Below are positions 9,457 to 36,349 of a stretch of 39,556 bases of DNA, piece by piece. How positions within the stretch are numbered: position 1 is the first letter of the stretch; each line of letters begins with the position of its first letter. Location of the stretch: IMG/VR virus record IMGVR_UViG_3300018416_000043, positions 1 to 39,556 of that record. One strand, written 5' to 3'. Position numbers and translations under genes: made by a program. The notes beneath the pieces are model-generated. The model saw only the letters and a program-made list of their open reading frames with translations. It did not search any database and had not been told where the DNA came from. Origin of the DNA: a virus.

Positions 9457-9842
9457 TGGCAAGAAAAAAACCAAACATAGATTTAGGTAATATCACTAAA
9501 CGAAGAGATAGGCAATTCTTCAAAAACTTTGTATTAGAAGTTATTGAAGATACTTTTATTTTTGAGGTAACTCCTACATCTATATCACTTGATGGTGATA
9601 CCGAAACATTATTTACTTTGGTATTGGATGGGTATCGATTTGTGTATGAAGATTTAGTAGTTTCAGATTCAAAAGATTACTTAGATGTATATTTATATGG
9701 AGTGAAGCAAAGTGAAAATTATGATGTAACATTTGATGATACTTCAATTACAATAACTTTTACTGAAAGTATAACAAGAGTTCCAGCTGATGTGGTTGAG
9801 ACTGATTTTGAAATTAAAGGTAAAATTACACAAATAGTATAA
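9456..9842 (+). CDS. Small beta-domain protein upstream of giant fibre
   Basis: This 128-residue protein of unknown function begins MARKKPNIDLGNITKRRDRQ, followed by a beta-rich part with 'ISLDGDTETLFTLVLDGYRF' (about 49-68) and 'LDVYLYGVKQSENYDVTF...ITITFTES...DFEIKGKI' (about 79-125). The last part is a third copy of the domain found in the two previous genes. The start overlaps the previous stop by one base and its stop overlaps the start of the giant gene by one base (TAATG at both ends). It may be an adaptor for the giant protein; this is inferred from position only. Confidence 0.7.
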   Translation: MARKKPNIDLGNITKRRDRQFFKNFVLEVIEDTFIFEVTPTSISLDGDTETLFTLVLDGYRFVYEDLVVSDSKDYLDVYLYGVKQSENYDVTFDDTSITITFTESITRVPADVVETDFEIKGKITQIV

Positions 9843-21800: not shown

Positions 21801-22015
21801 CTAATCAGGGTGGTGCTGGTATACCTGACCCTGATAAAGAAATTACGGAAATTGCGGGTGGTAGAGTGTTCTTTACTTCAGGTAACGAACTTGGTGACTT
21901 TAGAATTGGTACGGGACTTGTGATTAATCAGGCAACTGGTACGTTGCAGGGTAGAACATTCTCTCGTTCATTATTCTCATTAGTTACACCATTCTCTCTC
22001 GCATTGGAAGGGTAA
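9842..22015 (+). CDS. Giant tail-fibre-like structural protein, 4057 residues
   Basis: This is a very large appendage protein. Residues 1-100 carry short fibre repeats (VFISGSLLVSQSIDIGS, VEITGSLTIDG). At about 107-380 there is a right-handed beta-helix-type domain opening YVSSTNGSDDNDGRTPQFPL-RTIKKAAKIA, like pectate-lyase-fold phage proteins often annotated VrlC-like in cyanophages. From about 385 to 3925 two repeat types alternate: 'SSSF.IV.DII.NG...LPT..' (about 21 copies) and a helical repeat of about 110 residues with C.RDVGYIIDAVATDLLYGG and AGEFYY.YPS (21 copies, each with one Cys). At about 1190-1287 a cupredoxin-like domain interrupts the array. The C-terminus (from about 3940, GHDFSYAGSGVTYKALPPNQ ... 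FRIGTGLVINQATGTL) is a conserved end of this family in marine T4-like phages. The ATG overlaps the previous stop (TAATG). Function as a long fibre or tail spike is inferred; enzymatic activity of the beta-helix is not shown. Confidence 0.9.
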   Translation: MARLIPQKQIEEVNIFKDSISVNNSVFISGSLLVSQSIDIGSDLTTPQRVTGSVEITGSLTIDGPLAFANAANRLDATASFADESVDSQRFGGILAKEFGESDATLYVSSTNGSDDNDGRTPQFPLRTIKKAAKIATDGDDGRYGLPTGSLFTGFAIKVDTGTYLEDNPIELPKNTTVWGSGLRVTKVLAKNENEDLFWVNSGNYLSEMTFGNLRVFPSVDVSEKGFAVAFAPNAFITTSPYVQNCSMISNQENSFLEKYEEIPAGGGGLNVDGNRIHPDSPLASMVLDAYTQIAPNGVGCQVVGRGFIQLVSFFTNFSAYSVKVIDGGQAVLLNSNTSFGDYGMYASGSRFITGSGGNADAFFNVQDNYSIIVDTIKNGLSSIPDLVPNTFEGRRITDPNEVPQYFISEDSTIDVAERVKSDFRLVSSIVEDGITNVPKLLAKSGKGGYGPTSLYNVSGDTQYTNVATASSDDIEFIDTNFDITLDIIDRGNAATASYVQIDNVSSSIKVSDIEQYSTFAVQSDTSQRIVDRFDTVISIIENGLTFSPDIDSNASASYKLTETPIYETDVTSSLETIEYVSSSLSIVYDILANGTGSLPTTILSSSVENPSVDIQNAYTLLIENIPFIQDETIAYLSSSWSDHSYNQETCKRDVGFIISSSAHDLLFGGNEESIRSGVYYYQFPSNATTTEKDPTLTGVKYASELAINILGGKVFTEPSVELDNAYDIIYQNKDFVKAETIAYISSSWSEFEYNEASCSRDVGYILDAVATDIHYGGNERSVTAGEFYYKYPSLATVDNRTVGQLQQTLDGVKYAKRITEKLANNDTFVTASASVLNAVNLIKENRSLIQSETITYIDTQYPNFSYDRVKCRRDVGYIIDNVLTDLLYGGNERSELAGLYYFLYPSIANTTQLEETLEAIRYTKEFTKAVAQSIVLETPQVILNVDGNIRVTSFTPTTGSIDATDSEVTIVSQSFGLIEDIIRYGTDSVLSSIAGNSEDYIWNLENPLNVSGITQITSSIVATGETTNVVTSSFDTVIKIIQSGSSITTEETIGTDSKGNPISTVGIPKNSYGDNLVTTTIGTTIPSDITLVKNTEAGILFGDGVQITSSISVDSSNISKVSSSFSIVSDIIKYGISGSLSIVGSSDTSTYFEVVTLEDGSFNINKTQLQKFDDVDGRILGENTGSFDDSVKDPTLTLKRGDLYTFSINSLNNINAIPTETEPFFITTQRSIDSKYRYNSGVTNNGTTFGTITFIVPFDAPDTLFYVNGNDINAGGVINIVDELPLSDTQRYVNVPSLGSFEVITNNVDNIKVTDLSQYSSEVTASISESFDISSSFSNVIDILSNGVGVIPTISKNASGNIKKTSLTQYTSSVDSTDGIINTITSSFNNVMNVIQNGTGSIPTLIENTTDLIKVSSVTQITSSLSGSNTEVVNVSSSFAIVLDILGKGIDSLPIEVSNTNSNIKFYSAEQFTGSLSGSLEDISFVSSSISIVSSIISYGSGSYLTASNYGAISTNPSTIAAYEIIKENIPFIQNETIAYLSSSWSTASYNEASCSRDVGLIVSGAAEDLLYGVYSSSIVNGKFYLEYPSEAETSQLNQTLDGIEYASKLTQNLIQNIEFVTASTEVSASYNLIRNNREFIKEETISYLSSSWSTFDYNEVTCKRDVGHIIDAVSTDLLYGGNERSLNAGVFYYQYPSEATSSQLDQTKDGINYARRLVENIVVGNQFAAAPFSRTNGYDLLFNNKEFIQNEVTEYISSSWSEFEYNDVTCRRDVGYIIDAVATDLLYGGNERSNKAGEFYYLYPSTATTSQLDPTIDGVGYAKNLSIELLQNNVFVTASQQTIEVSNLISENRSLVQNEVIAYISSSWSNFEYNEASCSRDVGYILDAVTTDFYYGGNERSSKAGEFYYLYPSSATVSGSESPNVDAQLYPTVDGVKYAQRLTNKLINNVTLVTASIERQTVHSLMVDNRELIQSEVISFMSSSWSNFQYDDIKCRRDVGYIVDAVATDVLYGGNERSVTAGEFYYLFPSEATTIQSDQTITGITHAAGLADKIIQSTLLVNADSETISAYNSMLDNKELIQNNVTEFIDQLYPYFTYDRVKCRRDVGYIIDAVATDLLWGGNERSIVAGDYYYRYPSKTTSLELTETTMAIEYAKLIVNKLITNVELVVPSISLNANNNIRFNDTEQYSGSLAISGSSLTDISSSFSVVVDTIQNGLVSLPTEFKNIESLTKVTDATQVTESVSANEQLVSSSYAVVLDILQNGVEVIPTLVENTNGNIKATSTTQITSASAAGATEITKVSSSFALVERIVEGGVDELETIVYNTAGNIKVGNVSQYIGGVGGNSSDVTAISESISIVTDIIQNGTGSLPTIIEYTTPSTDVNTLAAYEILKQNIGFIQSETIAYLSSSWSTASYNEASCSRDVSLIVSGAAEDLIWNSNSASIMNGYYYYLFPSQAQGAQLNQTLDGVFYASRLAQKLIQNVVFESPSTARIAAFDLLRDNTELIQNETIAYLSSSWSGHSYNETTCKRDVGYIIDAVRTDILYGGNERTNKAGEYYYLYPSNATGSELIQTLDGINYAGRLVQKVVQNTTLSNPSTSVVNSYNSILDDKSTIQSKVIAYLSSSFPTHQYNESKCSRDVGYIIDAVATDLFYGGNERSIEAGRFYYLYPSQATGYQIEETVAGIEYAQRLTEVSSKNKGTQIGIVSASIDLINDVIRLGSDNIPFAIAKNFQTSELDTPQNLTTGRYVTASGDYEVGNELAIVSSSFLQINDIIENGIDILPTLVLNTENTIKVTNLTQFTSSLSGTSAEITKVSGSVAIVENIVQNGLSVLPTIVENNTNINNLIKVGSVEQYVSASGADKIQSKIVSSSFGLVIDGLTNGTGSLPTIIEYTERVDAPKTVLAYNLIKENIEFIKEETIQFMSSSWSNFVYNEASCSRDVGLIVSGAAEDLINNSNSASIVNTKFYFEYPSDATGSQLDQTVTAIRYASNLVQNIVRNYEYVTASAEVSSSYNLLVENKEFIVSESIQFVSSSWSDFDYNQNTCGRDVRYIVDAVATDLLYGGNERSVTAGRYYYEYPSSAIVGGVPSATQQKDPTVTAINYVSGLVTKLVGGSVFVTSSNEVEYVYDALRLNREFIQNETIAFVNAKYPNLQYNEASCKRDTGFIVDAVATDLRWGGNQRSLTAGEFYYRFPSQATNVQLGETTDAVTYASDLVKEIVLKNTLSIPTLTENSANNIKVTSATQTLGVGTSDEYTLNAVSSSFGIVMDIVLNGIGSLPTISEYTQSLNDTEVSEAYSLLKSNIPFIQSEVIAYISSSWSGFAYNEASCSRDVGLIVSGAAEDLLFGSVSASVTNGEFYYLYPSDATGSQLNQTLDGIRYASRLANNIIQSVTYVTSSIENVTSYNLLRDNKEFIQSESIAYISSSWSTFGYNEETCKRDVGYIVDAIATDILYGGNERSVTAGDFYYRYPSNATTSELEPTTTGIEYAGDLAEKIIVNEVFVSPSVERIAGNETLLNNRLFIQNEVISYISSSWSNFEYNEASCSRDTGYIVDAVATDLLYGGNERSRTAGEFYYKFPSSATVAGSESPNVNAQLYPTIDGIRYANGISQKLVQNIEFVTSSNEVSSSWNLLRDNKEFIQNEVIAYVSSSWSGVFYNEDKCKRDVGYLIDAAATDMYYGGNERSVTAGSFYYLFPSSATEKGVPSTTAQLDPTVDGIRYAGKLSTKVIKNEPFVQPSASVLVGADLLVGNKELIQKETIAFLSSSWSEFEYNEASCSRDLGYIIDAVRTDLVYGGNERSVQAGTFYYYIPSVATTEQKPQTTDGIDFAKGLSEKVILKEQLVRAPFQTRESVDYLIASKKELQSIAISYTNGAFPGFEYNEEKCYRDTGFIVDAIATDLYYGGNERSIAAAESYYTGVYGSAAEVITNQQYETADVNRYLRTQFQRIVRNSPLEEFGSLIITTGHDFSYAGSGVTYKALPPNQGGAGIPDPDKEITEIAGGRVFFTSGNELGDFRIGTGLVINQATGTLQGRTFSRSLFSLVTPFSLALEG
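11668..21610 (+). repeat. 21-copy helical CxRDVG repeat array in giant fibre
   Basis: Each copy reads roughly (N/D)..LI..NKEFIQ.E.IAY.SSSWS.F.YNEASC.RDVGYIIDAVATDLLYGGNERSVTAGEFYY.YPS.AT...L.QT..GI.YA..L, and each has a single Cys. Copies occur in five runs of 3, 6, 3, 3 and 6, separated by the SSSF..NG repeat. The first copy of each run has SGAAEDL or a similar sequence and lacks a full GGNERS (4 of 5 runs). The last copy of each run has (Y/F)P instead of SWS before the Cys. Some copies share long identical DNA, for example 18659-18712 and 19835-19888. Confidence 0.92.
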
Positions 22016-22945: not shown

Positions 22946-25900
22946 ATGAGTCAATTATTAAGCGGTAAGGTAAGGGTAGTTCGTCCGCAGGATGTATCCG
23001 ATGATAGGTATGAGTACTTATCATTACAGGAAGCAGAACCCAATTTAGGGGTTCCACTAAGTGGTAGCATCCAAAGTGGTTCTGTTGCACTTATTGCATC
23101 TGATATTGATGGAAATCGTTTATTTATCACAAAAATACAATTAGAGGAATTTAGTGGTTCATTCTCAGGCTCATTTGCCGGAGATGGTTCTCAATTAAAT
23201 AATCTACCATTCTCAAGCCAATTAATAAGTGGTTCTGCATCCGCATCGATTGCACCAAATACTGGATTCTTAGTAAATGTATCATCATCATTTGATGGTG
23301 ATATGGATATCAATGGTGATGTTAGAGTTACTGGTGATTTATTTGTAGATAATAGAATAGTAGCTAGAGAAATTTTAGTTGAGATAGTATCTTCATCTAT
23401 TATATTCTCATCTGGTTCGAATCGATTTGGTAATACAACTGGTGATTTGCAAGAATTTACTGGTTCGGTTGGTATAACTGGTTCATTAGATGTTGAGGGT
23501 AGTACAACCATATCAAACGATTTAGTAGTTAGTGGTAGTGGTACCATTAGTGGTTCCCTATCGATAGGTAATGAGTTGGTTATTAGTGGTAGTGGTGATA
23601 TTAGTGGCTCACTTAAAGTTGGTGGTGATATATCAACCAATAATGTAACTGCCTCATATGTATCTTCTTCATTTTTCGAAGGAGATGGTAGTAGATTATT
23701 CAATCTACCTGCCGCTGCTGAATCAACTAGGATAGTTGATGGTAATGTAACCGCATCGGTTGATAATAATGATGGATTCATTGTAATATCAGTAGATAGT
23801 GGTTCACAATTTACAGGTTCATTATTTGTAAGTGGAAATATTGAAATCAATAGTGGTTCATCCTTTAGTGGTAGTGGTGCCAACTTATTTGATATTCCAA
23901 AAGCAGCATTAACCCCTGATGCATTATTATCATCATTTATTGTAAGTGGTTCAGTAACTGCATCGGTTGACCCTAATTTCGGATTTAGATTAGAGGGTAC
24001 CGATAGAGCTGAATTCAGTTCATCATTATTTGTAAGTGGTGGTGTTAGTATAAAAAGTGGCTCATCTTTTAGTGGTAGTGGTGAAAATCTATTCAATATT
24101 CCAAGAGCAGCATTAACACCGGATGCACTTCTTTCAAATTTAATTGTTAGTGGTGCTGTAACCGCATCTGTAACACCTGAAGGTGGATTCTTAGTAACTT
24201 CTGTTGAAAGTGGTTCAACCTTTAGTGGAAGTATATTCCTAAGTAGTGGTTCGTTCTTCTCTGGTAGTGGTGAAAAACTATTTAATATTCCTCGTTCTGC
24301 GCTTACCCAAGATGCTCAATTATCTAACTTAATTGTAAGTGGAGCTGTAACCGCATCCGTAACACCCGATGGGGGATTCTTAGTAACTTCTGTTGAAAGT
24401 GGTTCAACTTTTAGTGGTTCGATTTTCTTATCATCTGGTTCTTTCATTAGTGGTAGTGGTGAACAACTATTTAATATACCATTATCCGCACTTGCTGAGG
24501 AAGTAGTTGCGGCAACTAAAATTACCGAAGGTGATGTAACCGCATCAGTTTCAAACGAAGATGGATTTGTAGTAACATCAATTGATAGTGGTTCAACCTT
24601 CTTTGGGGATATACAACTTCAAACTGGTTCATTTAGTGGTAGTGGTGCTAATTTATTTGATATACCGAGAGCAGCATTAACCCCTGATGCATTATTATCA
24701 TCATTTATTGTAAGTGGTAGTGTAACAGCGTCTGTAACACCTGATGATGGGTTTGTTGTAACTTCAATTGAAAGTGGTTCAACTTTCTTTGGTGATGTAA
24801 AGGTACAAACTGGTTCATTTAGTGGTAGTGGAGCTAATCTATTTGATATACCACGTTCAGCACTTACGCAAGATGCACTTTTATCCAATTTAATTGTAAG
24901 TGGGGCAATAACCGCATCTGTAACTCCGGATGATGGATTTGTTGTTACCTCAGTTGAAAGTGGTTCAACTTTCTTTGGGGAAGTTAGAGTAGAAAGTGGT
25001 TCTGCTTTTAGTGGTAGTGGTGAGAAATTAAGAGATATACCATTCTCAGCACTTTCTGATGATGCGCAGGCATCTATCACATCGTTAGTATCTGATGAAT
25101 CAAAAATATTAGTAAGTGGTTCGGTAACTGCATCAGTTGATGCTAATGCTGGATTTATTATAACATCCGTTGCGAGTGGTTCAACTTTCTTTGGAGAAGT
25201 TAGAGTACAAAGTGGTTCTGCTTTTAGTGGTAGTGGTGAAAGGTTATTTGATATTCCATTCTCAGCACTTTCCGATGATGCACAAACATCTATCATATCA
25301 TTGGTATCGGATGAATCGAAGCTATTAGTAAGTGGAAGTGTAACTGCATCCGTTGATGCAAAAAATGGATTTATTGTAACATCAATCGCTAGCGGTTCAA
25401 CATTCTTTGGGGATGTTGGTGTAGTTAGTGGTTCATCCTTTAGTGGTAGTGGTGCTAAATTAACTGATATACCATTTGCGGCAATATCTGTTTCATCCGA
25501 AGATGCATTTGCATCGGTTGTAGCTGGTGATTCAAAACGATTGGTTACTGGTTCAGTTACTGCATCCGTTTCAAAGGAGGATGGGTTCAAAGTAGAATCC
25601 ATTGCTAGTGGTTCGACCTTCTTTGGTGATGTAAAAGTTCAAACTGGTTCATTTAGTGGTAGTGGTGCACAGTTATTTGATATACCTCGTTCAGCACTTA
25701 CACAAGATGCACTTTTATCAGCTTTAATAGCTAGTGGTAGTGTAACTGCATCTACCGAAGATAATGTGTTTAAAGTAGTATCGGTTGATAATGGTTCCAT
25801 ATTTAGTGGTTCAATACAAGTTGATAATGCAGTAACCGCATCTGGTTTCAAAGGTAGTGGTAGAGATTTGACTGATGTAGTTGTAACCGAAATGGTTAGC

Positions 25901-28900
25901 GCATCTGTTGTAGCTGATGTATCACCTGATGCTGGATTTAGAGTAACATCTCAAATAGTTGGTTCACAATTTACTGGTTCAGTAAAAACAACAACTTCTA
26001 TAACTGCTGGTACATTCGTATCTGCATCTACTTTCAAAGGTAGTGGTGCTGAATTAACTGATATTGTTGTTAATGAAATAGTAAGTGGGGCAGTTACCGC
26101 AACTGTTGCACCAAATGAAGGATTTGTTGTAACATCAGCCGAAAGTGGTTCCACATTTGTAGGTAGTGTTGATATAAATGGATTACTTAATGTAGAGGGT
26201 AATGTATCCGCATCTATGTTTACTGGTAGTGGTGCCGGTTTATTTGATATACCCCGTTCAGCACTTACCGAAGATGCTCTTTTAACTACTGAAATTGTAA
26301 GTGGTTCAGTAACCGCATCCGTTTCACCAAACAAAGGATTTGTTGTAACATCAGCTGATAGTGGTTCTCAATTTACTGGTTCGGTAAGTATGGATACATC
26401 GTTGAGTATAACTGATGTAATCGAACTTGGTGAAAATGGTATTATTGCTGAGCCTGGTAAAGTATTTAGTGGTAGTGGTGCTGGATTATTTGATATTCCA
26501 GAAGCAGCATTATCATTTGAAATTAGTAAAATAACGTCTGGTTCGATTACCGCATCGGTAACACCTGATGATGGATTTGTTGTAACTTCAATCGAAAGTG
26601 GTTCAACTTTCTTTGGTGATGTAAAACTTCAAACAGGTTCATTTAGTGGTAGTGGTGCTAATCTATTTAATATACCAAAATCGGCAATATCTGATTTAGA
26701 TACATCTTTAATCTTTAGTGGTAGTGTAACTGCATCTACACATCCAGAAAATGGATTTATTGTAACATCAGTTGATAGTGGTTCAACTTTCTTTGGAGAA
26801 GTTAGAGTACAAAGTGGCTCATCCTTTAGTGGTAGTGGTGCCAACTTATTCGATATTCCAAAAACCGCACTTACCGAAGATGCACTTCTATCAGCATTTA
26901 TTGCAAGTGGTAGTGTTACTGCTTCTACATCACCTGTTGATGGATTTGTTGTAACTTCAACTGATATTGGTTCAACTTTCTTTGGAGAAGTTAGAGTAGA
27001 AAGTGGTTCTTCATTTAGTGGTAGTGGTGCATTATTATTCGATATACCTGATACAGCGTTATCTGATGAAGCACAATCTGCAATTACCGCATTACAATCT
27101 ATTGATGCTTCTAAATTAGCAACTGGTAGTGTAACCGCATCTGTTGACCCGATTGATGGTTTTGTTGTAAACTCACAAGTAAGTGGTTCAACTTTCTTTG
27201 GGGATATCCAATTGACAAGTGGTTCATTTAGTGGTAGTGGTGCTAAACTATTTGATATACCGAGAACGGCATTAACCCCTGATGCATTAGTTAGTACATT
27301 AATTGCGTCTGGTTCGGCAACTGCATCTATTTCACCAAACTTAGGGTTTGTAGTTAATACATCATCATCTATTGAAGGTGATTTGAGTGTTGATAATGAT
27401 TTATATGTAGGTGGTAAAATAACCGCAACTGAATTAAACGTAACATTTATAAACTCAGAAGTAATTTATTCTTCTGGTTCAAACACATTTGGTGATAAAA
27501 CATCAGATAGACAAGAATTTACTGGTTCCGTAAACGTAAGTGGTTCACTTAACGTTGATGATGGAATCATTAGTGGTGATGGTAGTGGATTATTTAATAT
27601 CCCACAATCAGCACTTACAGATGATGCTGTAAGAATCTCAAGCGGTTCAGTAACTGCATCAGTTTCACCTGAATTTGGATTTAGAGTAGAATCATCATTA
27701 GAGGGTTCTGAATTTACTGGCTCGGTTTCTATAACTGGTTCGGTTGATGTAACAAACACAATCACATCACAAATTGTAATAGCTGATTCTATTAGTGGTT
27801 CATTTAGTGGTAGTGGTAGAGATTTAATAGATATACCATTTTCTCAACTAACCGGTGATGCATTTAGAATCGCAAGTGGTTCTGTAACCGCATCGGTTTC
27901 ACCTAATAATGGATTCGTTGTAACATCAGTTGATAGTGGTTCTACCTTTAGTGGTTCAGTATCAGTTGATGGTAATGTAACTATACCATCTGGTAGTGGA
28001 TTCTTTAGTGGTAGTGGTGAGGGGTTATTTAATATTCCACAATCTGCATTTAGTGGGGATTCATTTAGAATAGCAAGTGGTAGTGTAACCGCATCGGTTT
28101 CACCTAATTTTGGATTAAAAGTAGAATCAGCTGATAGTGGTTCTCAATTTACAGGTTCATTATTTGTAAGTGGTGGTATAAGTGTTAATAGTGGTTCTAC
28201 CTTTAGTGGTAGTGGTGCTGAATTATTTGATATACCACTAACCGCACTTTCAATTGAAGCTATTGAAGCTCTAATTTCAACTGAAATAAAGAGTGGTAGT
28301 GTAACCGCATCGGTTTCACCTGATAATGGATTCATTGTAACCTCTGTTGATAGTGGTTCTCAATTTACTGGTTCTATTAATGTAACTGGTAGTTTGGTTG
28401 TAAGTAATGATATTACCACAACTATATTAAGTGCTAGTATTGTAACTGCGGATGAACTTAGTGGTTCATTCTCCGGTTCATTTGAAGGTGATGGTAGTGG
28501 ATTAACAAATATCCAATTAGCAAACTTATCTTTAGAAATAAATCAAATCACATCTGGTTCAGTAACTGCATCAGTTGACCCTGATACTGGATTTGTAGTA
28601 ACTTCAGTTGAAAATGGTTCTACATTTACTGGTTCAATTGATGTAAGTGGTTCAATTACCATAGATGGTATTTACACTGGTGATGGTAGTGGATTGAGAA
28701 ATATCGATATCGCTAATTTGGCATTCGATACTACTCGTATTTTTACTGGTTCAGTTACCGCATCGGTAGATGCTGGTGGATTCTTCAGAGTAGAAGATTC
28801 TAACGGACCAATTAAATCTGAATTTAGTGGTTCGGTATATGTTTCCGAATCTGTAATAGCTAGAGCATTTGTTGGAGATGGTTCTCAGATTACAAACGTA

Positions 28901-31900
28901 CAAGCGGCGGCATCTCCAAAGATAGCAAGTGGTTCGGCAACCGCATCTGTTGAGAGTGGTGAGTTCTTTATTGTAAATACATTTAGTGGTTCTCAATTTA
29001 CATCTTCGGTTGATATTAGTGGTTCATTATCAGCATCACTATTCCAAGGTGATGGTGGTGGATTATTTAACATTCCACTTGATGCACTTGAGGATTTGGA
29101 GTTAAATATAATTAACTCTGGGTCTGGATTCGCAGAAGTTGACCCTGAGAGATTATTAGTTAATGTTCCAATAACCGCATCTCGATACGATGGTGATGGT
29201 AGTGGATTATTTAACATCCCAGCTGAATCATTACAAGATTTAAAATTAGATAAAATTGAATCTGGTTCGGCAGTAGCAGTTATTTCTCCTAATAAAGGAT
29301 TGGAAATAAATGTAGGAGTTAATGTATCCCAATCTCTACAAGTGAGTGGGGGGATATTTGTAACTGGTAGTGATGTTGTTGTAGCTAGTGGTTCATCATT
29401 TGTTGGGGATGGTAGTGGATTGAGTAATATCAATATCGCTAACTTAGCATTTGAAACTTCACTTTTAGAGAGTGGTTCGGCATTTGCACAAATTTCACCA
29501 AACTTAGGATTACAAATAAACACTTCAGCATCCATTAGTGGGGGGTTGAGTGTAGAAAAAAATATATACTCACCAATTATTAATGGTGGGCAAATTACTG
29601 GTTCACTTTATGGTGGATATTATGGTGAAGGTGATGCTGATGATAGAGATATTCTTATCTATGATGAAGCTCGTTCTAAATATGTACCTGTACCTGAAAG
29701 TACACCAACTTTAGCAGAACCATTTACAAATGTAACTGAGGTAACAATTGTACACAACTTTGATGTTGAGTACCCAATCGTACAGGTTTATGAAACTGGT
29801 TCGAATGGAATGATTATTCCTCAAGCAATTGAACCTTTAAATAGTAACACTGTAAGAGTAACCTTTAGTGGGTTGACAAGTGGACACGTTGTTGTTGGTA
29901 CTGGTGGTTCAAAAATAAGTGGAGCAATTAGTGGAGATAATGTAATAGGTATAGTACCATCAGCATCTAGAGCAATTTCAGCAGCAACTGCGGATATAGC
30001 ACAAAATGTTGCAGGTATTGATTCCGCATCCATTGCACTACTTAATGATTTAGAAAACTTTGTAAGAAACGAACAAACCGCATCTATGACGGTGTTGAGT
30101 TCATCGTTCGCTCTTACCGCATCATACGCATTAAACGCAGCATCTTCTGAAGGTGGGGACTTTATTCAAAGTTCACAAACATCTTCTATGAGTGTTGCAA
30201 CATCATCATATTCATTCTACGCATTAACTGCTTCATACGCATTGAACGCTGGTGAAGCTGGTGGTGGTGGCGATTTAAATTCTGACCAAACGGCATCGAT
30301 GTATGTTTACTCAGCATCATTTGCTTCGATTGCAGAATACGCATTAAACGCCGGTGGTAGTGGAGCTGGGTTCCCATTTGAGGGATACGCTGAACTAACT
30401 GGTAGTTTGGATATAAGTGGTAGTTTAGTTATTACTGGTAGTACATTCATACAAAATTTAGAAACTGGTTCATCTGATTTCGTAGTAACATACAATGAGG
30501 TAACTGGTAGATTAGAAAAAAGAGATATAGAAGCCGCACAAGGTGCTGATGGTGTGGATGGTTCTTCTGGTAGTAGTGGTACAACTGGTACCGCTGGTAG
30601 TGGAGGTACTTCTGGTTCTTCTGGTTCGTCTGGAACATCTGGGACAAGTGGTACATCTGGAACCAACGGAACATCAGGTTCATCTGGTAGTAGTGGAACA
30701 TCTGGTACATCGGGAACATCTGGTACAACCGGTACATCTGGTACTTCTGGTAGTAGTGGTTCATCGGGTTCATCTGGTTCAAGTGGTAGCTCTGGTTCGT
30801 CTGGAACTTCTGGTACAAGTGGTACATCAGGTTCATCTGGGACAAGTGGTACTTCCGGCTCATCTGGTTCATCTGGTAGTGGTGGAACCTCTGGTTCTTC
30901 TGGTTCAAGCGGTAGTAGTGGAAGTAGTGGTTCCTCTGGAACAACAGGTTCAGCTGGTACTTCTGGTTCAAGTGGAAGTAGTGGTAGTAGTGGTAGTGGA
31001 GGAACTTCAGGTTCTTCTGGTTCATCAGGCTCATCGGGTTCTTCTGGTTCAGCTGGGACAAGTGGAAGTAGTGGAAGTAGTGGTTCCTCTGGAACATCTG
31101 GTTCTTCTGGCTCATCAGGTTCTTCTGGGACAAGTGGAAGTAGTGGAAGTAGTGGTTCTTCGGGTACCGCAGGTTCTTCTGGTACTTCTGGTAGTGGAGG
31201 AACATCTGGGACAAGTGGAAGTAGTGGTACCTCAGGTACATCTGGTTCTTCTGGTTCAAGTGGTACATCTGGAACATCAGGTTCAGCTGGAACTTCTGGT
31301 TCTTCTGGGACAAGCGGTACTTCTGGGACAAGTGGTTCTTCTGGGACAAGCGGAACATCTGGTACCAGTGGAACTTCTGGTAGTAGTGGAACATCTGGGA
31401 CAAGTGGTAGTAGTGGAACATCTGGGACAAGTGGAAGTAGTGGTAGTAGTGGAACATCTGGAACATCTGGAACCTCAGGCTCATCTGGTTCTTCAGGCTC
31501 TTCTGGAACATCTGGAACTTCTGGTTCATCTGGTTCATCTGGTAGTAGTGGAACTTCTGGTTCATCTGGCTCTTCAGGTTCATCTGGTACTTCGGGTTCT
31601 TCAGGTTCGTCTGGTAGTAGTGGAAGTAGTGGAACATCAGGTACATCTGGTTCAACCGGCTCTTCGGGTTCTTCTGGAACAAGCGGTTCAAGCGGCTCAT
31701 CTGGTACTTCGGGTTCATCTGGCTCATCTGGTACAAGTGGATTGAGTGGTTCATCTGGTACTTCAGGAACGAGTGGAAGTAGTGGTAGTAGTGGTACTTC
31801 TGGAAGTGAGGGTTCATCCGGTACATCTGGAACATCTGGCTCTTCGGGTACTTCTGGTGAAGATGGTACATCTGGAACATCAGGTTCAGCTGGGACAAGT

Positions 31901-34900
31901 GGAAGTAGTGGTTCTTCTGGAACAAGCGGAACATCGGGTACTTCTGGAACATCGGGTAGTAGTGGTACATCTGGACAAGCTGGTTCATCTGGTACTTCTG
32001 GGACATCAGGTAGTAGTGGTACTTCTGGGACAAGTGGAACATCAGGTACATCTGGAACAAGCGGTACGTCTGGAACTTCTGGTACTGATGGAACGTCTGG
32101 GACAAGTGGAAGTAGTGGTACTTCTGGTACGAGTGGTACAACTGGTTCGCATGGTACTTCGGGAACTTCTGGAACAAGCGGAACATCTGGAACGGATGGT
32201 ACCTCAGGTACGTCTGGTTCAACTGGTACTGATGGAACATCGGGTACTTCTGGAACTTCTGGCACAAGCGGAACATCTGGAACATCTGGTACAAACGGAA
32301 CTTCTGGTTCATCTGGAACATCAGGTTCAACTGGTACCGATGGTACATCTGGAACAAGTGGTATAAGTGGTTCATCTGGTAGTAGTGGAACTTCAGGTTC
32401 TTCTGGTAGTAGTGGGACAAGTGGTAGTAGTGGTTCAGCTGGTACTTCTGGTACATCGGGTTCATCTGGGCAAGATGGTACCTTATTTGGTAGTAGTGGT
32501 TCATCTGGAACCTCAGGCTCATCTGGAAGTTCTGGTTCATCGGGTTCATCTGGAACCACTGGAACTGGTGGTACTTCTGGAGTTGATGGAACATTCTTTG
32601 GTTCATCAGGTTCATCTGGTATAAGTGGGACAAGTGGTAGTAGCGGTTCATCTGGAACAAGCGGTGAAAGTGGTTCTGCTGGTACTTCTGGAACTTCAGG
32701 TGTAGATGGTACATTCTTCGGTTCATCTGGTTCTTCGGGTATAAGTGGTACATCGGGTTCATCGGGTTCTTCTGGAACATCTGGATTCGGTTCATCGGGT
32801 ACATCTGGTGTGAGTGGAACATCTGGACAAGATGGTACCTTATTTGGTAGTAGTGGTACATCAGGTGAGGCTGGAACTTCTGGTTCATCAGGTTCGACTG
32901 GTACTGATGGTGTAAGTGGAAGTAGTGGTACTTCTGGTATAAGTGGTACATCTGGTGTTGATGGTACATTCTTTGGTAGTAGTGGTAGTAGTGGAACTTC
33001 TGGTTCTTCTGGTAGCAGTGGTACATCTGGGTTAGGTTCATCTGGAACTTCTGGAACAAGCGGTAGAGATGGAACTTTATTTGGTTCATCTGGTACAACT
33101 GGTACTTCTGGTTCATCTGGCTCATCTGGTACGAGTGGATTGGGTTCTTCAGGTACTTCAGGTATCAGCGGAACTTCTGGGCAGGATGGTACCTTATTCG
33201 GAAGTAGTGGTACTTCTGGAGTTGATGGTACTTCTGGTAGTAGTGGTTCATCTGGAACATCTGGATTCGGTTCATCAGGTACTGCTGGAACATCTGGTAG
33301 AGATGGAACTTTATTTGGTTCAAGCGGTTCTTCGGGTTCTTCTGGAACAAGTGGTTCATCGGGTACGAGTGGATTAGGTTCTTCGGGTACTTCTGGTATC
33401 AGCGGAACGAGCGGACTTGATGGGACATTATTTGGTTCTTCAGGTACTACTGGTACGTCTGGTAGTAGTGGTTCATCTGGTACTTCTGGTTTGGGAAGTA
33501 ATGGTACTTCTGGAACATCTGGACAGGATGGAACTTTATTTGGTTCGTCTGGTTCTTCAGGTACAGCAGGTTCTTCTGGTTCTTCTGGAACAAGCGGATT
33601 GGGTTCTTCGGGTACTTCTGGGACAAGTGGTAGAGATGGAACATTATTCGGTTCTTCTGGAACAACAGGTACTTCTGGTGTTAGTGGTTCGTCTGGTACT
33701 TCTGGATTAGATGGGTTAATTGGTTCAAATGGTACTTCTGGTACTGGTGGTACCTCAGGTAGAGATGGAACTTTATTCGGTTCGTCTGGTACTTCTGGAA
33801 CATCTGGTGTTAGTGGAAGTAGTGGTACATCTGGATTGGGCTCTGATGGTACTTCAGGTGTTAGTGGTACTTCTGGACTTGATGGAACTTTATTCGGAAG
33901 TAGTGGTACATCTGGTACTAATGGTACATCTGGTCAAAGTGGTTCTTCTGGAACAAGCGGAGTTGGTTCGTCTGGTACATCTGGTGCGAGTGGTACATCT
34001 GGTAGAGATGGAACTTTATTTGGTTCTTCGGGTTCATCAGGAACTAACGGAACATCTGGTATAGATGGTTCTTCTGGTACATCTGGAATAGGTTCATCGG
34101 GTACTTCGGGTGTTAGTGGAACATCTGGACAAGATGGTACCTTATTTGGTTCTTCTGGTTCTTCGGGTACTTCTGGTGCAGGTTCATCTGGAACATCAGG
34201 GTTATCTGGTTCTGATGGTACTTCTGGTATAAGCGGTACTTCTGGACTTGATGGTACGTTATTTGGTACATCGGGTTCATCGGGTACGTCTGGGGCGGGT
34301 TCGTCTGGTACATCTGGTATTACTGGTTCAAACGGAACTTCGGGTTCATCTGGTTTAGATGGTACAAACTTTGGTAGTGCTGGTAGTAGTGGTTCATCCG
34401 GTACTTCTGGTGAGAGTGGTGTTGATGGAACGAATGGTGTTGATGGAACTAATGGTAGTGCTGGTAGTCATGGTTCTTCGGGTTCTTCTGGAACAAGTAT
34501 TAATCAAAATGGTACAACTGATGATGGTGTAGTTCGTTGGGATAATACAAATAATTACCAATACGTTAATACTGATTTAGTTTACGATGGAACTACGTTA
34601 AGTGTAGTTGGTGATGTTAACCTAAGTGGTGATTTAATCGCAAGTGGTGAAGTTAGTGGTTCAACCTCAATTCACACTAAAAACTTTGTTGAACTTTATT
34701 CAACTTTGGGAACTGGTGGTAGTACATCAATCGATTTAACATCAGCAAATAACTTTGAGTACACTGTAAACACAACATCAACAATATCGTTTACAAATTC
34801 ACCGGCAGCTCCGAAAGCATTTGGATTTACATTGGTATTAAATAATGGTGGTTCACAAGCAATCACATGGCCAGCTGGAGTATTATGGGCAGGTGGTGTT

Positions 34901-35002
34901 GCACCGGCTTTAACTGCGGCTGGAACGGATATTTTGGTATTCTATACTTATGATGGAGGGGTATCGTATTACGGATTCCTATCCGCAGCAAATATGAGTT
35001 AA
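22946..35002 (+). CDS. Giant collagen-like tail-fibre protein, 4018 residues
   Basis: The N-terminal SGKVRVVRPQDVSDDRYEYL-SLQEAEPNLG block is a conserved start of marine T4-like fibre proteins, probably the attachment end. Residues about 91-2215 hold some 30 copies of 'SGSVTASV.P..GF.VTS..SGS.FFG......GSFSGSGANLFDIP.SAL...'; two SSIIYSSGSN modules are embedded (about 149 and 1503). About 2225-2330 is a beta domain (VTIVHNFDVEYPIVQVYETG ... TVRVTFSGLTSGHVVVGTGG). Three 'QTASM.V.S.SFA..A.YALNA' repeats follow (about 2375-2480). Residues 2533-3851 are about 440 Gly-X-Y triplets, mostly GSS and GTS. The C-terminal 167 residues form a globular tip (VELYSTLGTGG ... AITWPAGVLWAGGVAP ... GGVSYYGFLSAANMS), a tip type common on phage fibres. 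This is probably a long fibre with a collagen-like or polyglycine-helix shaft and a receptor-binding end. Confidence 0.92.
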   Translation: MSQLLSGKVRVVRPQDVSDDRYEYLSLQEAEPNLGVPLSGSIQSGSVALIASDIDGNRLFITKIQLEEFSGSFSGSFAGDGSQLNNLPFSSQLISGSASASIAPNTGFLVNVSSSFDGDMDINGDVRVTGDLFVDNRIVAREILVEIVSSSIIFSSGSNRFGNTTGDLQEFTGSVGITGSLDVEGSTTISNDLVVSGSGTISGSLSIGNELVISGSGDISGSLKVGGDISTNNVTASYVSSSFFEGDGSRLFNLPAAAESTRIVDGNVTASVDNNDGFIVISVDSGSQFTGSLFVSGNIEINSGSSFSGSGANLFDIPKAALTPDALLSSFIVSGSVTASVDPNFGFRLEGTDRAEFSSSLFVSGGVSIKSGSSFSGSGENLFNIPRAALTPDALLSNLIVSGAVTASVTPEGGFLVTSVESGSTFSGSIFLSSGSFFSGSGEKLFNIPRSALTQDAQLSNLIVSGAVTASVTPDGGFLVTSVESGSTFSGSIFLSSGSFISGSGEQLFNIPLSALAEEVVAATKITEGDVTASVSNEDGFVVTSIDSGSTFFGDIQLQTGSFSGSGANLFDIPRAALTPDALLSSFIVSGSVTASVTPDDGFVVTSIESGSTFFGDVKVQTGSFSGSGANLFDIPRSALTQDALLSNLIVSGAITASVTPDDGFVVTSVESGSTFFGEVRVESGSAFSGSGEKLRDIPFSALSDDAQASITSLVSDESKILVSGSVTASVDANAGFIITSVASGSTFFGEVRVQSGSAFSGSGERLFDIPFSALSDDAQTSIISLVSDESKLLVSGSVTASVDAKNGFIVTSIASGSTFFGDVGVVSGSSFSGSGAKLTDIPFAAISVSSEDAFASVVAGDSKRLVTGSVTASVSKEDGFKVESIASGSTFFGDVKVQTGSFSGSGAQLFDIPRSALTQDALLSALIASGSVTASTEDNVFKVVSVDNGSIFSGSIQVDNAVTASGFKGSGRDLTDVVVTEMVSASVVADVSPDAGFRVTSQIVGSQFTGSVKTTTSITAGTFVSASTFKGSGAELTDIVVNEIVSGAVTATVAPNEGFVVTSAESGSTFVGSVDINGLLNVEGNVSASMFTGSGAGLFDIPRSALTEDALLTTEIVSGSVTASVSPNKGFVVTSADSGSQFTGSVSMDTSLSITDVIELGENGIIAEPGKVFSGSGAGLFDIPEAALSFEISKITSGSITASVTPDDGFVVTSIESGSTFFGDVKLQTGSFSGSGANLFNIPKSAISDLDTSLIFSGSVTASTHPENGFIVTSVDSGSTFFGEVRVQSGSSFSGSGANLFDIPKTALTEDALLSAFIASGSVTASTSPVDGFVVTSTDIGSTFFGEVRVESGSSFSGSGALLFDIPDTALSDEAQSAITALQSIDASKLATGSVTASVDPIDGFVVNSQVSGSTFFGDIQLTSGSFSGSGAKLFDIPRTALTPDALVSTLIASGSATASISPNLGFVVNTSSSIEGDLSVDNDLYVGGKITATELNVTFINSEVIYSSGSNTFGDKTSDRQEFTGSVNVSGSLNVDDGIISGDGSGLFNIPQSALTDDAVRISSGSVTASVSPEFGFRVESSLEGSEFTGSVSITGSVDVTNTITSQIVIADSISGSFSGSGRDLIDIPFSQLTGDAFRIASGSVTASVSPNNGFVVTSVDSGSTFSGSVSVDGNVTIPSGSGFFSGSGEGLFNIPQSAFSGDSFRIASGSVTASVSPNFGLKVESADSGSQFTGSLFVSGGISVNSGSTFSGSGAELFDIPLTALSIEAIEALISTEIKSGSVTASVSPDNGFIVTSVDSGSQFTGSINVTGSLVVSNDITTTILSASIVTADELSGSFSGSFEGDGSGLTNIQLANLSLEINQITSGSVTASVDPDTGFVVTSVENGSTFTGSIDVSGSITIDGIYTGDGSGLRNIDIANLAFDTTRIFTGSVTASVDAGGFFRVEDSNGPIKSEFSGSVYVSESVIARAFVGDGSQITNVQAAASPKIASGSATASVESGEFFIVNTFSGSQFTSSVDISGSLSASLFQGDGGGLFNIPLDALEDLELNIINSGSGFAEVDPERLLVNVPITASRYDGDGSGLFNIPAESLQDLKLDKIESGSAVAVISPNKGLEINVGVNVSQSLQVSGGIFVTGSDVVVASGSSFVGDGSGLSNINIANLAFETSLLESGSAFAQISPNLGLQINTSASISGGLSVEKNIYSPIINGGQITGSLYGGYYGEGDADDRDILIYDEARSKYVPVPESTPTLAEPFTNVTEVTIVHNFDVEYPIVQVYETGSNGMIIPQAIEPLNSNTVRVTFSGLTSGHVVVGTGGSKISGAISGDNVIGIVPSASRAISAATADIAQNVAGIDSASIALLNDLENFVRNEQTASMTVLSSSFALTASYALNAASSEGGDFIQSSQTSSMSVATSSYSFYALTASYALNAGEAGGGGDLNSDQTASMYVYSASFASIAEYALNAGGSGAGFPFEGYAELTGSLDISGSLVITGSTFIQNLETGSSDFVVTYNEVTGRLEKRDIEAAQGADGVDGSSGSSGTTGTAGSGGTSGSSGSSGTSGTSGTSGTNGTSGSSGSSGTSGTSGTSGTTGTSGTSGSSGSSGSSGSSGSSGSSGTSGTSGTSGSSGTSGTSGSSGSSGSGGTSGSSGSSGSSGSSGSSGTTGSAGTSGSSGSSGSSGSGGTSGSSGSSGSSGSSGSAGTSGSSGSSGSSGTSGSSGSSGSSGTSGSSGSSGSSGTAGSSGTSGSGGTSGTSGSSGTSGTSGSSGSSGTSGTSGSAGTSGSSGTSGTSGTSGSSGTSGTSGTSGTSGSSGTSGTSGSSGTSGTSGSSGSSGTSGTSGTSGSSGSSGSSGTSGTSGSSGSSGSSGTSGSSGSSGSSGTSGSSGSSGSSGSSGTSGTSGSTGSSGSSGTSGSSGSSGTSGSSGSSGTSGLSGSSGTSGTSGSSGSSGTSGSEGSSGTSGTSGSSGTSGEDGTSGTSGSAGTSGSSGSSGTSGTSGTSGTSGSSGTSGQAGSSGTSGTSGSSGTSGTSGTSGTSGTSGTSGTSGTDGTSGTSGSSGTSGTSGTTGSHGTSGTSGTSGTSGTDGTSGTSGSTGTDGTSGTSGTSGTSGTSGTSGTNGTSGSSGTSGSTGTDGTSGTSGISGSSGSSGTSGSSGSSGTSGSSGSAGTSGTSGSSGQDGTLFGSSGSSGTSGSSGSSGSSGSSGTTGTGGTSGVDGTFFGSSGSSGISGTSGSSGSSGTSGESGSAGTSGTSGVDGTFFGSSGSSGISGTSGSSGSSGTSGFGSSGTSGVSGTSGQDGTLFGSSGTSGEAGTSGSSGSTGTDGVSGSSGTSGISGTSGVDGTFFGSSGSSGTSGSSGSSGTSGLGSSGTSGTSGRDGTLFGSSGTTGTSGSSGSSGTSGLGSSGTSGISGTSGQDGTLFGSSGTSGVDGTSGSSGSSGTSGFGSSGTAGTSGRDGTLFGSSGSSGSSGTSGSSGTSGLGSSGTSGISGTSGLDGTLFGSSGTTGTSGSSGSSGTSGLGSNGTSGTSGQDGTLFGSSGSSGTAGSSGSSGTSGLGSSGTSGTSGRDGTLFGSSGTTGTSGVSGSSGTSGLDGLIGSNGTSGTGGTSGRDGTLFGSSGTSGTSGVSGSSGTSGLGSDGTSGVSGTSGLDGTLFGSSGTSGTNGTSGQSGSSGTSGVGSSGTSGASGTSGRDGTLFGSSGSSGTNGTSGIDGSSGTSGIGSSGTSGVSGTSGQDGTLFGSSGSSGTSGAGSSGTSGLSGSDGTSGISGTSGLDGTLFGTSGSSGTSGAGSSGTSGITGSNGTSGSSGLDGTNFGSAGSSGSSGTSGESGVDGTNGVDGTNGSAGSHGSSGSSGTSINQNGTTDDGVVRWDNTNNYQYVNTDLVYDGTTLSVVGDVNLSGDLIASGEVSGSTSIHTKNFVELYSTLGTGGSTSIDLTSANNFEYTVNTTSTISFTNSPAAPKAFGFTLVLNNGGSQAITWPAGVLWAGGVAPALTAAGTDILVFYTYDGGVSYYGFLSAANMS
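23218..29600 (+). repeat. About 30-copy GSVTASV/FSGSG fibre repeat
   Basis: The unit is about 60-75 residues: SGSVTASV(S/T/D)P..GF.VTS(V/I)(D/E)SGSTFFG(D/E)V.VQ(S/T)GSFSGSGA.LFDIP.SALT.DALLS..I. Units 2-11 and 16-19 are the most alike. Later ones shorten (SGSGFAEV..., SGSAVAVI...) and swap FSGSG for GDGSGLFNIP. The pattern is that of trimeric beta-fibre shafts. Two similar units occur in the gene at 37082. Confidence 0.9.
30541..34498 (+). repeat. Collagen-like Gly-Ser/Thr-Ser repeat, about 440 triplets
   Basis: The stretch encodes Gly every third residue over about 1,320 residues with period 9 bases. X and Y are mainly Ser and Thr, with rare Asp, Ala, Asn, Glu, Gln, Arg, Leu, Val, Ile and His; I see no Pro. 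The first 2 kb is almost pure. From 32477 the array is punctuated by 17 DGT(L/F/N)FG segments and about a dozen two-residue breaks such as SGLGSS. The reading frame is open throughout; the stretch is not a CRISPR array. Confidence 0.95.
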
Positions 35003-35021: not shown

Positions 35022-35897
35022 ATGAGTATAGCAAGAAGATTAGTATCATCATCGGGAGGAGGAGCAGTGGAACCATTTAGATTTCAATTGACAGTGGCAT
35101 CTGGCCAAACGTATGGGTTACCTTTATTTTCGGTATCAGGTACACAACCTAATATTATAGTAGATTGGGGTGATACATCTGAAAGTACTATAACAGATGT
35201 AAATGATAGTGCTAGATTTCATGCATATACTTCAGCAGGTACATATACTGTTTCAATCATTGGTTCATTACCTGGTTTTAGGGTAGATAATGATATATAC
35301 AAAACATTATATACGGCAATCTTAGATTGGGGAAATGTTGGACTTCGTAGTTTAAATTTCTATGGATGTGTAAATATTACATCAATTCCAAACGCAACTT
35401 CTGGTTTGGGTAGGGTAACTCAATGGAACAACACATTTAGGGGAACAAGTATTACATCAATCCCATCTGGTTTGTTTGATTTCTCAACATCTGCATACGA
35501 ATTTGTGGATACATTTTCATTTACAAAGATAACATCAGTTCCCAACAACTTATTTGATGCTTGTACTGGTGCATCTTCATTTTCATCAACATTTAACGCA
35601 TGTACATCATTAGTAAGTGTACCTAATGAGTTATTCAGATATAATACTAATGTAATTAACTTCTCATCAACATTTAGAAACAACCGAGCATTAACAAATA
35701 TACCTACATTTCAATATAATCAAAATGTTAGTATCTTTTTGAACATATTCAATATGTCATCTACAAATAATGGTTCATCTTCTTGGGGAAATGTTGAAGA
35801 ATTATGGACTAGAAGTCCTGAACCATTGGGAACAAACGCTTTTAACAATTGTACTGGTGCAACTAACTACGCATCAATACCATTTAATTGGAAATAA
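35022..35897 (+). CDS. PKD-like plus BspA-type leucine-rich repeat protein, probable fibre tip
   Basis: This 291-residue protein has an N-terminal PKD-like beta domain (FRFQLTVASGQTYGLPLFSV ... IIVDWGDTSESTITD ... ARFHAYTSAGTYTVSIIGSL, about residues 19-90). About five leucine-rich-like units of the BspA/DUF285 type follow (about 105-260), with the unit SIPSGLFD.ST...FVDTFS.T, FDACTGASSFSSTFNACTSL and LFRYNTNVINFSSTFRNN. It ends with Cys-containing NNCTGATNYASIPFNWK. BspA-type repeats occur in bacterial surface adhesins; a phage tip using them as receptor-binding scaffold fits the position directly after a giant fibre and before a tail-fibre chaperone (inference). An ATG at 35014 is out of frame and leads to an early stop, so 35022 is chosen. 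No signal peptide is seen. Confidence 0.75.
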   Translation: MSIARRLVSSSGGGAVEPFRFQLTVASGQTYGLPLFSVSGTQPNIIVDWGDTSESTITDVNDSARFHAYTSAGTYTVSIIGSLPGFRVDNDIYKTLYTAILDWGNVGLRSLNFYGCVNITSIPNATSGLGRVTQWNNTFRGTSITSIPSGLFDFSTSAYEFVDTFSFTKITSVPNNLFDACTGASSFSSTFNACTSLVSVPNELFRYNTNVINFSSTFRNNRALTNIPTFQYNQNVSIFLNIFNMSSTNNGSSSWGNVEELWTRSPEPLGTNAFNNCTGATNYASIPFNWK

Positions 35898-35899
35898 TT

Positions 35900-36349
35900 A
35901 TGTATTTAAAGATAGAAAACGAAAATATAATATATCCATACACACTTAGTGATTTAAAAATCGATAATCCTAATGTTAGCTTCCCATTATCAATTACTAA
36001 TGATATTTTAGCAGATTTCAATGTATATCCAGTAAATTCAGTAGAATGTGGTACTGATTACACAAAAAATTACGAAGAAGCTACACCAATATTAGTGGAT
36101 TCATCATACATTCAAGTTTGGAACGAATCCGATGCATCTGCTGAAGAAATTTCAACAAAAATAGAAGAAAAGTGGTTAGAAGTTAGAGAACTTAGAGATA
36201 ACTTATTATCACAATCAGATTGGACTCAATTCCAAGATTCCCCAATAACAGGCTCCTCATTAACTGAGTGGCAAACTTACAGACAATCACTTAGAGATAT
36301 AACCTCACAAGAAAATCCATTTTCTTTAACTTGGCCTGCTAGACCTTAG
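35900..36349 (+). CDS. Tail-fibre assembly chaperone-like protein
   Basis: This 149-residue protein has the C-terminal signature of phage tail assembly chaperones: W.E.RE-LRDNLLSQSDWTQFQDSP-(x)-LTEWQTYRQSLRDITSQENP-F...WPARP. These chaperones help fold or trimerise fibre tips and usually sit right after the tip gene, as here. The N-terminal part (MYLKIENENIIYPYTLSDLK ... VNSVECGTDYTKNYEEATP) resembles the beta domain common to this group. The open frame extends to a TTG at 35888, which would overlap the previous gene by ten bases, but the ATG at 35900, two bases after that stop, is the better start and fits the compact style. It is probably specific for the LRR protein or for the collagen-like fibre tip. 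Confidence 0.82.
   Translation: MYLKIENENIIYPYTLSDLKIDNPNVSFPLSITNDILADFNVYPVNSVECGTDYTKNYEEATPILVDSSYIQVWNESDASAEEISTKIEEKWLEVRELRDNLLSQSDWTQFQDSPITGSSLTEWQTYRQSLRDITSQENPFSLTWPARP

Follow-up and report, generated by a model that had tools for sequence, protein, structure and literature searches.

A recurrent aromatic insertion motif in the distal half of the proline-free collagen-like array of a phage tail fibre: a candidate register-locking element

The window, by which is meant the whole stretch of DNA that was analysed, is a linear IMG/VR virus record of 39,556 nt. Its major capsid protein gave a T4-type match (phrog_138; E = 1.4e-71) and was found to be 51–55% identical to the capsids of Flavobacterium phage immuto (51%), Microcystis phage Mel-JY01 and a 484-kb metagenomic phage, and on these sequence grounds the virus is assigned to the T4-like phages. 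Head and connector genes lie upstream of the fibre gene considered here and a tail fibre assembly chaperone gene (35888–36349, plus strand; PF16778, Phage_tail_APC) lies downstream, which places the fibre gene amid phage structural genes. A second collagen-like fibre gene, an open reading frame with orthologues in other contigs, begins on the plus strand at 37082 and runs past the window end at 39556; it contains no DGTxFG and served as an internal control, its sequence being marked by many GSG and GTG triplets and by the replacement of Gly with Ser or Ala (GTSSSAG, GTSASAG). A giant protein of 4057 aa is encoded at 9842–22015 and matched phage fibre and virion structural PHROGs (phrog_4527, 5342 and 701), its gene and the fibre gene together accounting for ~60% of the window.

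The fibre gene (22946–35002, plus strand) encodes 4018 aa and was recognised as a tail-fibre gene from its open reading frame, a Pfam Collagen match (E = 1.7e-122) and PHROG matches at its C-terminus. On translation, the N-terminal 2,532 aa (22946–30541, plus strand) proved to consist of tandem fibre repeats (SGSGANLFDIP, GDGSGLxNI) followed by linker domains, for which the PHROG match was weak; the GSTFFG(D/E) found within these repeats resembles the GTFFGSS described below, either through common origin or by chance. The ~1,316 aa that come next (30542–34498) form a Gly-X-Y array with Gly at every third position (PF01391, E = 1.7e-122), the composition of which (502 Ser, 444 Gly, 218 Thr) includes no Pro at all. 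The Pro-rich X and Y positions of stable PF01391 collagens were therefore not found anywhere in these ~1,316 aa, a result that limits any claim to a typical collagen and makes the stability of a triple helix uncertain, while leaving the Gly-X-Y pattern untouched; the sequence matches of the array in the PDB, like those in Pfam, were collagens. Modelling of the array as a single chain with AlphaFold2 was uninformative (pLDDT 30). Two open frames antisense to the array on the minus strand (30307–33125; 750 and 892 aa) are by-products of the repeat and do not count as evidence of genes.

The gene closes with a beta-rich domain of 170 aa (34490–34999, plus strand), modelled by AlphaFold2 with a mean pLDDT of 84.6, homologues of which were found in 80 loci. 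The domain matched tail fiber protein PHROGs (phrog_9017, 7760 and 22179) and, in BFVD, viral fibres including that of Roseobacter phage CRP-4; a fold search of the PDB gave no confident whole-domain match, the best being 9ny6_C (TM 0.40). It is likely to be the fibre tip.

Parsing the array by Gly step divided it into two very different halves. The proximal half (30542–32476, plus strand) comprises 645 aa of GTS and GSS triplets without a single phase shift, in agreement with the initial annotation, which had described the first part as almost pure Gly-X-Y. The distal half (32477–34498, plus strand) contains all 17 of the four-residue (+1) steps that had been reported there, together with exactly 12 two-residue (−1) steps where about a dozen had been estimated. 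The +1 steps, or nodes, have their first Gly at 32477 through to 34361 and all conform to [Q/V/R/L]DGT[L/F/N]FG, the residue before Asp being Arg or Gln (five each), Leu (four) or Val (three), the same four residues as previously listed. In order along the plus strand they are QDGTLFG (32471–32491), VDGTFFG (32582–32602 and 32702–32722), QDGTLFG (32828–32848), VDGTFFG (32957–32977), RDGTLFG (33065–33085), QDGTLFG (33182–33202), RDGTLFG (33299–33319), LDGTLFG (33416–33436), QDGTLFG (33524–33544), RDGTLFG (33632–33652 and 33761–33781), LDGTLFG (33878–33898), RDGTLFG (34004–34024), QDGTLFG (34130–34150), LDGTLFG (34247–34267) and LDGTNFG (34355–34375). The −1 steps all take the form GTS, GX, G, with X being Leu (six), Phe or Ala (two each), Val or Ile (one each); on the same strand they are, successively, GFG (32783–32791), GLG (33029–33037 and 33137–33145), GFG (33263–33271), GLG (33371–33379, 33488–33496, 33596–33604 and 33833–33841), GVG (33959–33967), GIG (34085–34093) and GAG (34175–34183 and 34292–34300). 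The resultant order of interruptions is +++-++-+-+-+-+-+-++-+-+-+-+-+, and a representative repeat unit is GTSGSSGTSGQDGTLFGSSGTSGTSG. Distances from a + to the next − were 22 or 25 residues, except for 13 in the last two cases, and from a − to the next + were 14, 17, 23 or 26; in the 11th interval GLDGLIG, composed of ordinary triplets, stands where GLG would be expected.

The DGTxFG motif recurs in more than 100 other viral contig stretches, and homologous arrays were collected as three samples: contigs fetched by the motif itself, contigs fetched by a plain GTSGTSGTSGTSG pattern and contigs fetched by the C-terminal domain, the last two being independent of the motif. The GTSGTSGTSGTSG sample yielded 72 +1 steps, among which the types listed were all [DN]GTxF or close to it. 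C-terminal homologues of at least about 43% identity carried both array and node wherever enough of the gene was present, and the sole more distant locus with results (33% identity) had no array. A frame or assembly artefact was ruled out, independent contigs sharing the same architecture. The pooled set comprised 80 arrays, each sharing at most 35% of its 15-mers with a longer one, and 604 +1 steps; since it includes loci fetched by the motif, the frequency of node-bearing arrays within it is biased, while spacing and phase lay outside the search criteria. The profile obtained was G(T/S)S-G[L/Q/V/K/F]-[D537/N64]-G-T599-[F352/L115/Y99/M18]-F592-G-S-S, and 589 of the 604 steps (97.5%) fitted x[DN]GT[FLYMN]F, with Asp or Asn conserved in 601, Thr in 599 and Phe at +3 in 592. 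The X position was hydrophobic in 71% of the triplets preceding a node as against mostly <10% elsewhere.

Among close relatives, with C-terminal domains 57–85% identical, the node counts were 17, 17, 17, 17 and 16, and interval lengths and − steps varied while node number stayed at 16–17; from these sequences the nodes are read here as conserved and the − steps as labile. Searches for the array beyond such contigs gave little: tblastn returned no cultivated relative with a node, for which the low-complexity masking of BLAST is probably responsible, and no Gly-X-Y array was present in the stretches of phages immuto and Mel-JY01 that were read. Of 25 motif matches in bacterial and archaeal genomes only one fell within an array; this contig, binned as Ca. 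Nitrosotalea (L130), carries VDGTFFGTSG within an array of 125 aa, the frame being 271 aa long, and is perhaps a misbinned or integrated virus. In one relative (L261, aa 1510–1620 of the frame), and likewise in other C-terminal homologues, a domain of ~110 aa that is absent from the window's array breaks the collagen array near its start. This domain has no Pfam match, matches phrog_677 ('baseplate wedge tail fiber protein connector'; 1.2e-17) and ends in YQCVNHSGMIGTI, a C-x2-H-x2-M pattern that, in our reading of the sequence, recalls a cupredoxin copper site.

Node spacing was constrained, the median distance from one + to the next across the 80 arrays being 39 residues, with 501 of 524 distances falling within 31–52. 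The deciles of relative node position ran from 0.52 to 0.92, which places the nodes in the distal half adjoining the tip domain. Other interruptions occupied other positions: those of the GTSAE type mostly 0.31–0.65, the GTTPPNFTS and GTNAPGFSS types 0.91–0.98, and Gly substitutions mostly proximal. Within the arrays of loci L009–L339 (e.g., L292, L278 and L283) the order along the shaft was Gly substitutions (GTSATS), GTSAE, +1/−1 steps and then GTTPPNFTS/GTNAPGFSS, at spacings of ~29–32 aa for GTSAE, ~39 aa for the nodes and ~21–27 aa for the types beside the tip.

By way of control, the main fibres contained 713 nodes in 60,175 aa (the contigs not being independent of one another), as against none, together with 15 − steps, in 22,314 aa of the second collagen-like gene of those same contigs. 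The sole blastn match to the array was the 735-kb metagenomic phage LR756501, in which two frames carry GTS arrays, one of the two having arrays of 900 and 1,437 aa; these are likewise Ser/Thr-rich, Pro-poor Gly-X-Y sequences, but have no +1 node and only three −1 steps, two of which precede SPG (GVGSPG, GSGSPG). The nodes are thus peculiar to fibres of this type and, within these, to the distal half; and, as the proximal half, the second gene and the 1,437-aa array all lack them, they are not required in every long array.

It was apparent from the codons that the motif is maintained as protein. The D, G, T, F and G residues are invariant across the 17 copies in the window despite being differently encoded (Gly by GGT, GGA or GGG, Thr by ACC, ACA, ACT or ACG, and Phe by TTT or TTC), with the Ser immediately after the motif using both TCN and AGY codons; taken with its recurrence in other contigs, this places the motif far beyond chance. 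On a rough measure, pN/pS was 0.31 in the motif core and 0.54 in plain-array windows.

It is proposed, with a confidence not quite amounting to an even chance, that the node is a structured, three-chain aromatic element that would both lock the register of the chains and give shape to the fibre. On this proposal a T4-like aquatic myovirus would carry a trimeric tail fibre of great length, for which the gene encodes shaft and tip; the shaft would be a proline-free Gly-Ser-Ser/Gly-Thr-Ser collagen-like helix. A known phage collagen stalk is a trimer of the length expected at ~2.9 Å per residue (PMC3368898); at 0.29 nm per residue the present array would form a homotrimeric rod of ~380 nm, and x-D-G-T-[F/L]-F-G-S-S (x often hydrophobic), recurring every ~39 residues, would recur every ~11 nm if the shaft is triple-helical. 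At each node a homotrimer would gather three Phe and three Leu, Phe or Tyr, often with three further hydrophobic residues, at a single level, and this putative aromatic knot would mark and lock the register of chains whose repeat is otherwise degenerate, while locally altering the helix as a kink or a step in twist. The − steps (GTS-GX-G) would be secondary weak points, labile in evolution and lying about half-way from one knot to the next, and not correctors of phase. The degeneracy of the plain repeat is evident on shifting each half against itself: 98% of Gly residues in the plain half align at shifts of, for example, 30, 39 or 66 residues, whereas no non-zero shift of the distal half aligns more than a fraction of 0.86 (at three residues) and most align less than 0.7, a difference through which the series of insertions may raise the cost of slipped registers. 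A vernier-like contribution to register is not universal, however, as in one homologue (L263) the intervals are regular, mostly 36, and would allow slippage by whole units.

Five other explanations of the node and its spacing, and a sixth at the level of DNA, were weighed against this proposal. The most probable of these, though itself unlikely, is that the node is a pure hinge, the distal half being a chain of ~11-nm rods on flexible joints that assist the receptor search of the tip; this accords with the bending of collagen helices by interruptions (PMC9898670), with the distal location of the interruptions beside the tip in most arrays and with a minimum distance of ~3 triplets between them, but a hinge has no need of a near-invariant D-G-T-x-F, since the far less constrained −1 steps or Gly substitutions would suffice.

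Rather less probable is a patch for binding or lateral association, in which the Leu/Phe patches would contact, at regular intervals, a molecule on the host surface, a further fibre or the tail of the phage itself. Regularly spaced hydrophobic residues in an otherwise Ser/Thr shaft would suit such a role. Receptor-binding sites usually diversify, however; this motif hardly varies among fibres with tips just 46–85% identical, and its spacing changes by whole triplets.

That the array adopts a non-collagen fold, with the interruptions as turns in a bundle resembling polyglycine II, is improbable. Gly-X-X bundles of polyproline-II helices do occur in the phage S16 fibre and in a snow flea protein (PMC11869133), and the array has no Pro; but 645 aa pass without any turn, the turns thereafter would be unevenly spaced, and the database matches are to collagens.

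Still less credence is given to the motifs as handles, spaced at ~39 residues, by which a fibre chaperone or host Hsp70 might hold the chain during assembly. The tail assembly chaperone gene lies just downstream, and plain GTS/GSS offers no hydrophobic grip, but the motif is absent from the proximal half and from the second collagen gene, and an Asp next to the hydrophobic patch is atypical of Hsp70 sites.

The initial annotation had interpreted the +1 and −1 steps as pairs, each insertion being followed by a deletion that restores triplet phase. The window does alternate strongly, and alternations across the arrays exceeded those in permutations (310 as against 245 ± 9); nevertheless, this interpretation is now very hard to sustain. 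Just 12 of the 17 insertions precede a deletion, leaving five uncompensated and a net shift of +5. Many homologous arrays contain + steps only, one (L034) having eleven in succession, and over the 80 arrays net phase modulo 3 was uniform (28/23/29). Distances between successive + steps were 37, 40 or 43 without an intervening − and 36, 39 or 42 with one, so that interval length is kept and the − merely shortens one triplet. Intervals 3 and 5 have a − in the window and none in the orthologous array L261, and orthologues lacking the step keep the downstream repeat intact, an outcome that the initial annotation had itself named as contrary to its proposal. Excess alternation is largely attributable to exclusion at short range: few interruptions lie nearer than 3 triplets to each other, the distance from a − to its nearer neighbouring + averages 4.1 triplets as against 2.5 ± 0.16 under uniform placement, and an interval of 11–13 triplets therefore takes either no − or one (nine + intervals had two − steps, as against 124 with one). 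Equivalent spacing with and without a −, the many arrays free of them and the uniform net phase together indicate that phase compensation is not selected; furthermore, in a homotrimer an identical insertion would shift all chains alike, so that phase along a single chain need not be restored.

With regard to DNA, the nucleotide identity of 84-nt units in the window was 0.656, as compared with 0.642 ± 0.009 in a null in which codons were redrawn from the array's own usage, and that of adjacent units was 0.663 where 0.658 ± 0.013 was expected; no synonymous codon memory between units was detected at lags of 3 to 39. Unit identity thus stands at the codon-resampled level, which implies that it is the protein, and not recent DNA copying, that maintains the pattern. 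A by-product of repeat expansion, in which a unit of 108–126 bp is copied by slippage or unequal recombination, is accordingly the least credible explanation of all: units with a +/− pair are multiples of the 9-bp DNA period of the array, but they retain no codon memory at the separations tested, and node count is steady at 16–17 among close relatives. Tandem duplication was ruled out for the present array by the codon-resampling test, although the array may have originated in an ancient duplication. The further suggestion in the initial annotation of a periodic Leu/Phe patch under selection is accordingly upheld, the ~39-residue spacing being common to 80 non-redundant arrays, the motif near-invariant and its copies not DNA duplicates.

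Interruptions in type IV and other non-fibrillar collagens are varied in sequence, whereas in the phage arrays a single insertion sequence accounts for 97.5% of the +1 steps. The Bella 2014 census, to the extent that it is cited in PMC9898670, concerns long triple helices in which, as in the phage arrays, the interruptions are mixed. One-residue changes to Gly-X-Y, whether a deletion (GQG of MBL) or an insertion (C1q), are known to bend the triple helix in those proteins (PMC9898670), to which the present steps bear a resemblance of sequence type; MBL and C1q have one interruption per chain, and the window fibre a repeated, spaced, aromatic motif. The closest phage counterparts, EPclA-D of E. 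coli O157:H7 prophages, likewise have an N-terminal part and a C-terminal domain joined by a collagen-like shaft, which in some of them carries one conserved interruption, but their shafts are Pro-rich and of 63–322 aa (PMC3368898), as compared with ~1,316 aa, no Pro and 29 phase-shifting interruptions of two kinds in the window. Collagen interruptions in a phage fibre are of a known kind, and what is unusual here is their regularity and sequence constraint; in the papers searched, a spaced +1 motif was nowhere described for phage collagens. It is tentatively suggested that x[D/N]GT[F/L/Y/M]FGSS may be a previously undescribed three-chain aromatic register-lock module which, as one of an ordered set of interruptions, might enable collagen-like fibres hundreds of nanometres long to be built of Ser/Thr triplets free of proline.

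In natural collagens the use of interruptions is irregular. Evolution in many aquatic phages has arrived at a single insertion sequence with a single spacing; the same protein also offers an array free of interruptions, and a nearby gene one free of insertions, as natural controls, and the function of an interruption thereby becomes directly testable with short peptides. The arrangement may also offer a rule for constructing long collagen-like rods without proline in bacteria.
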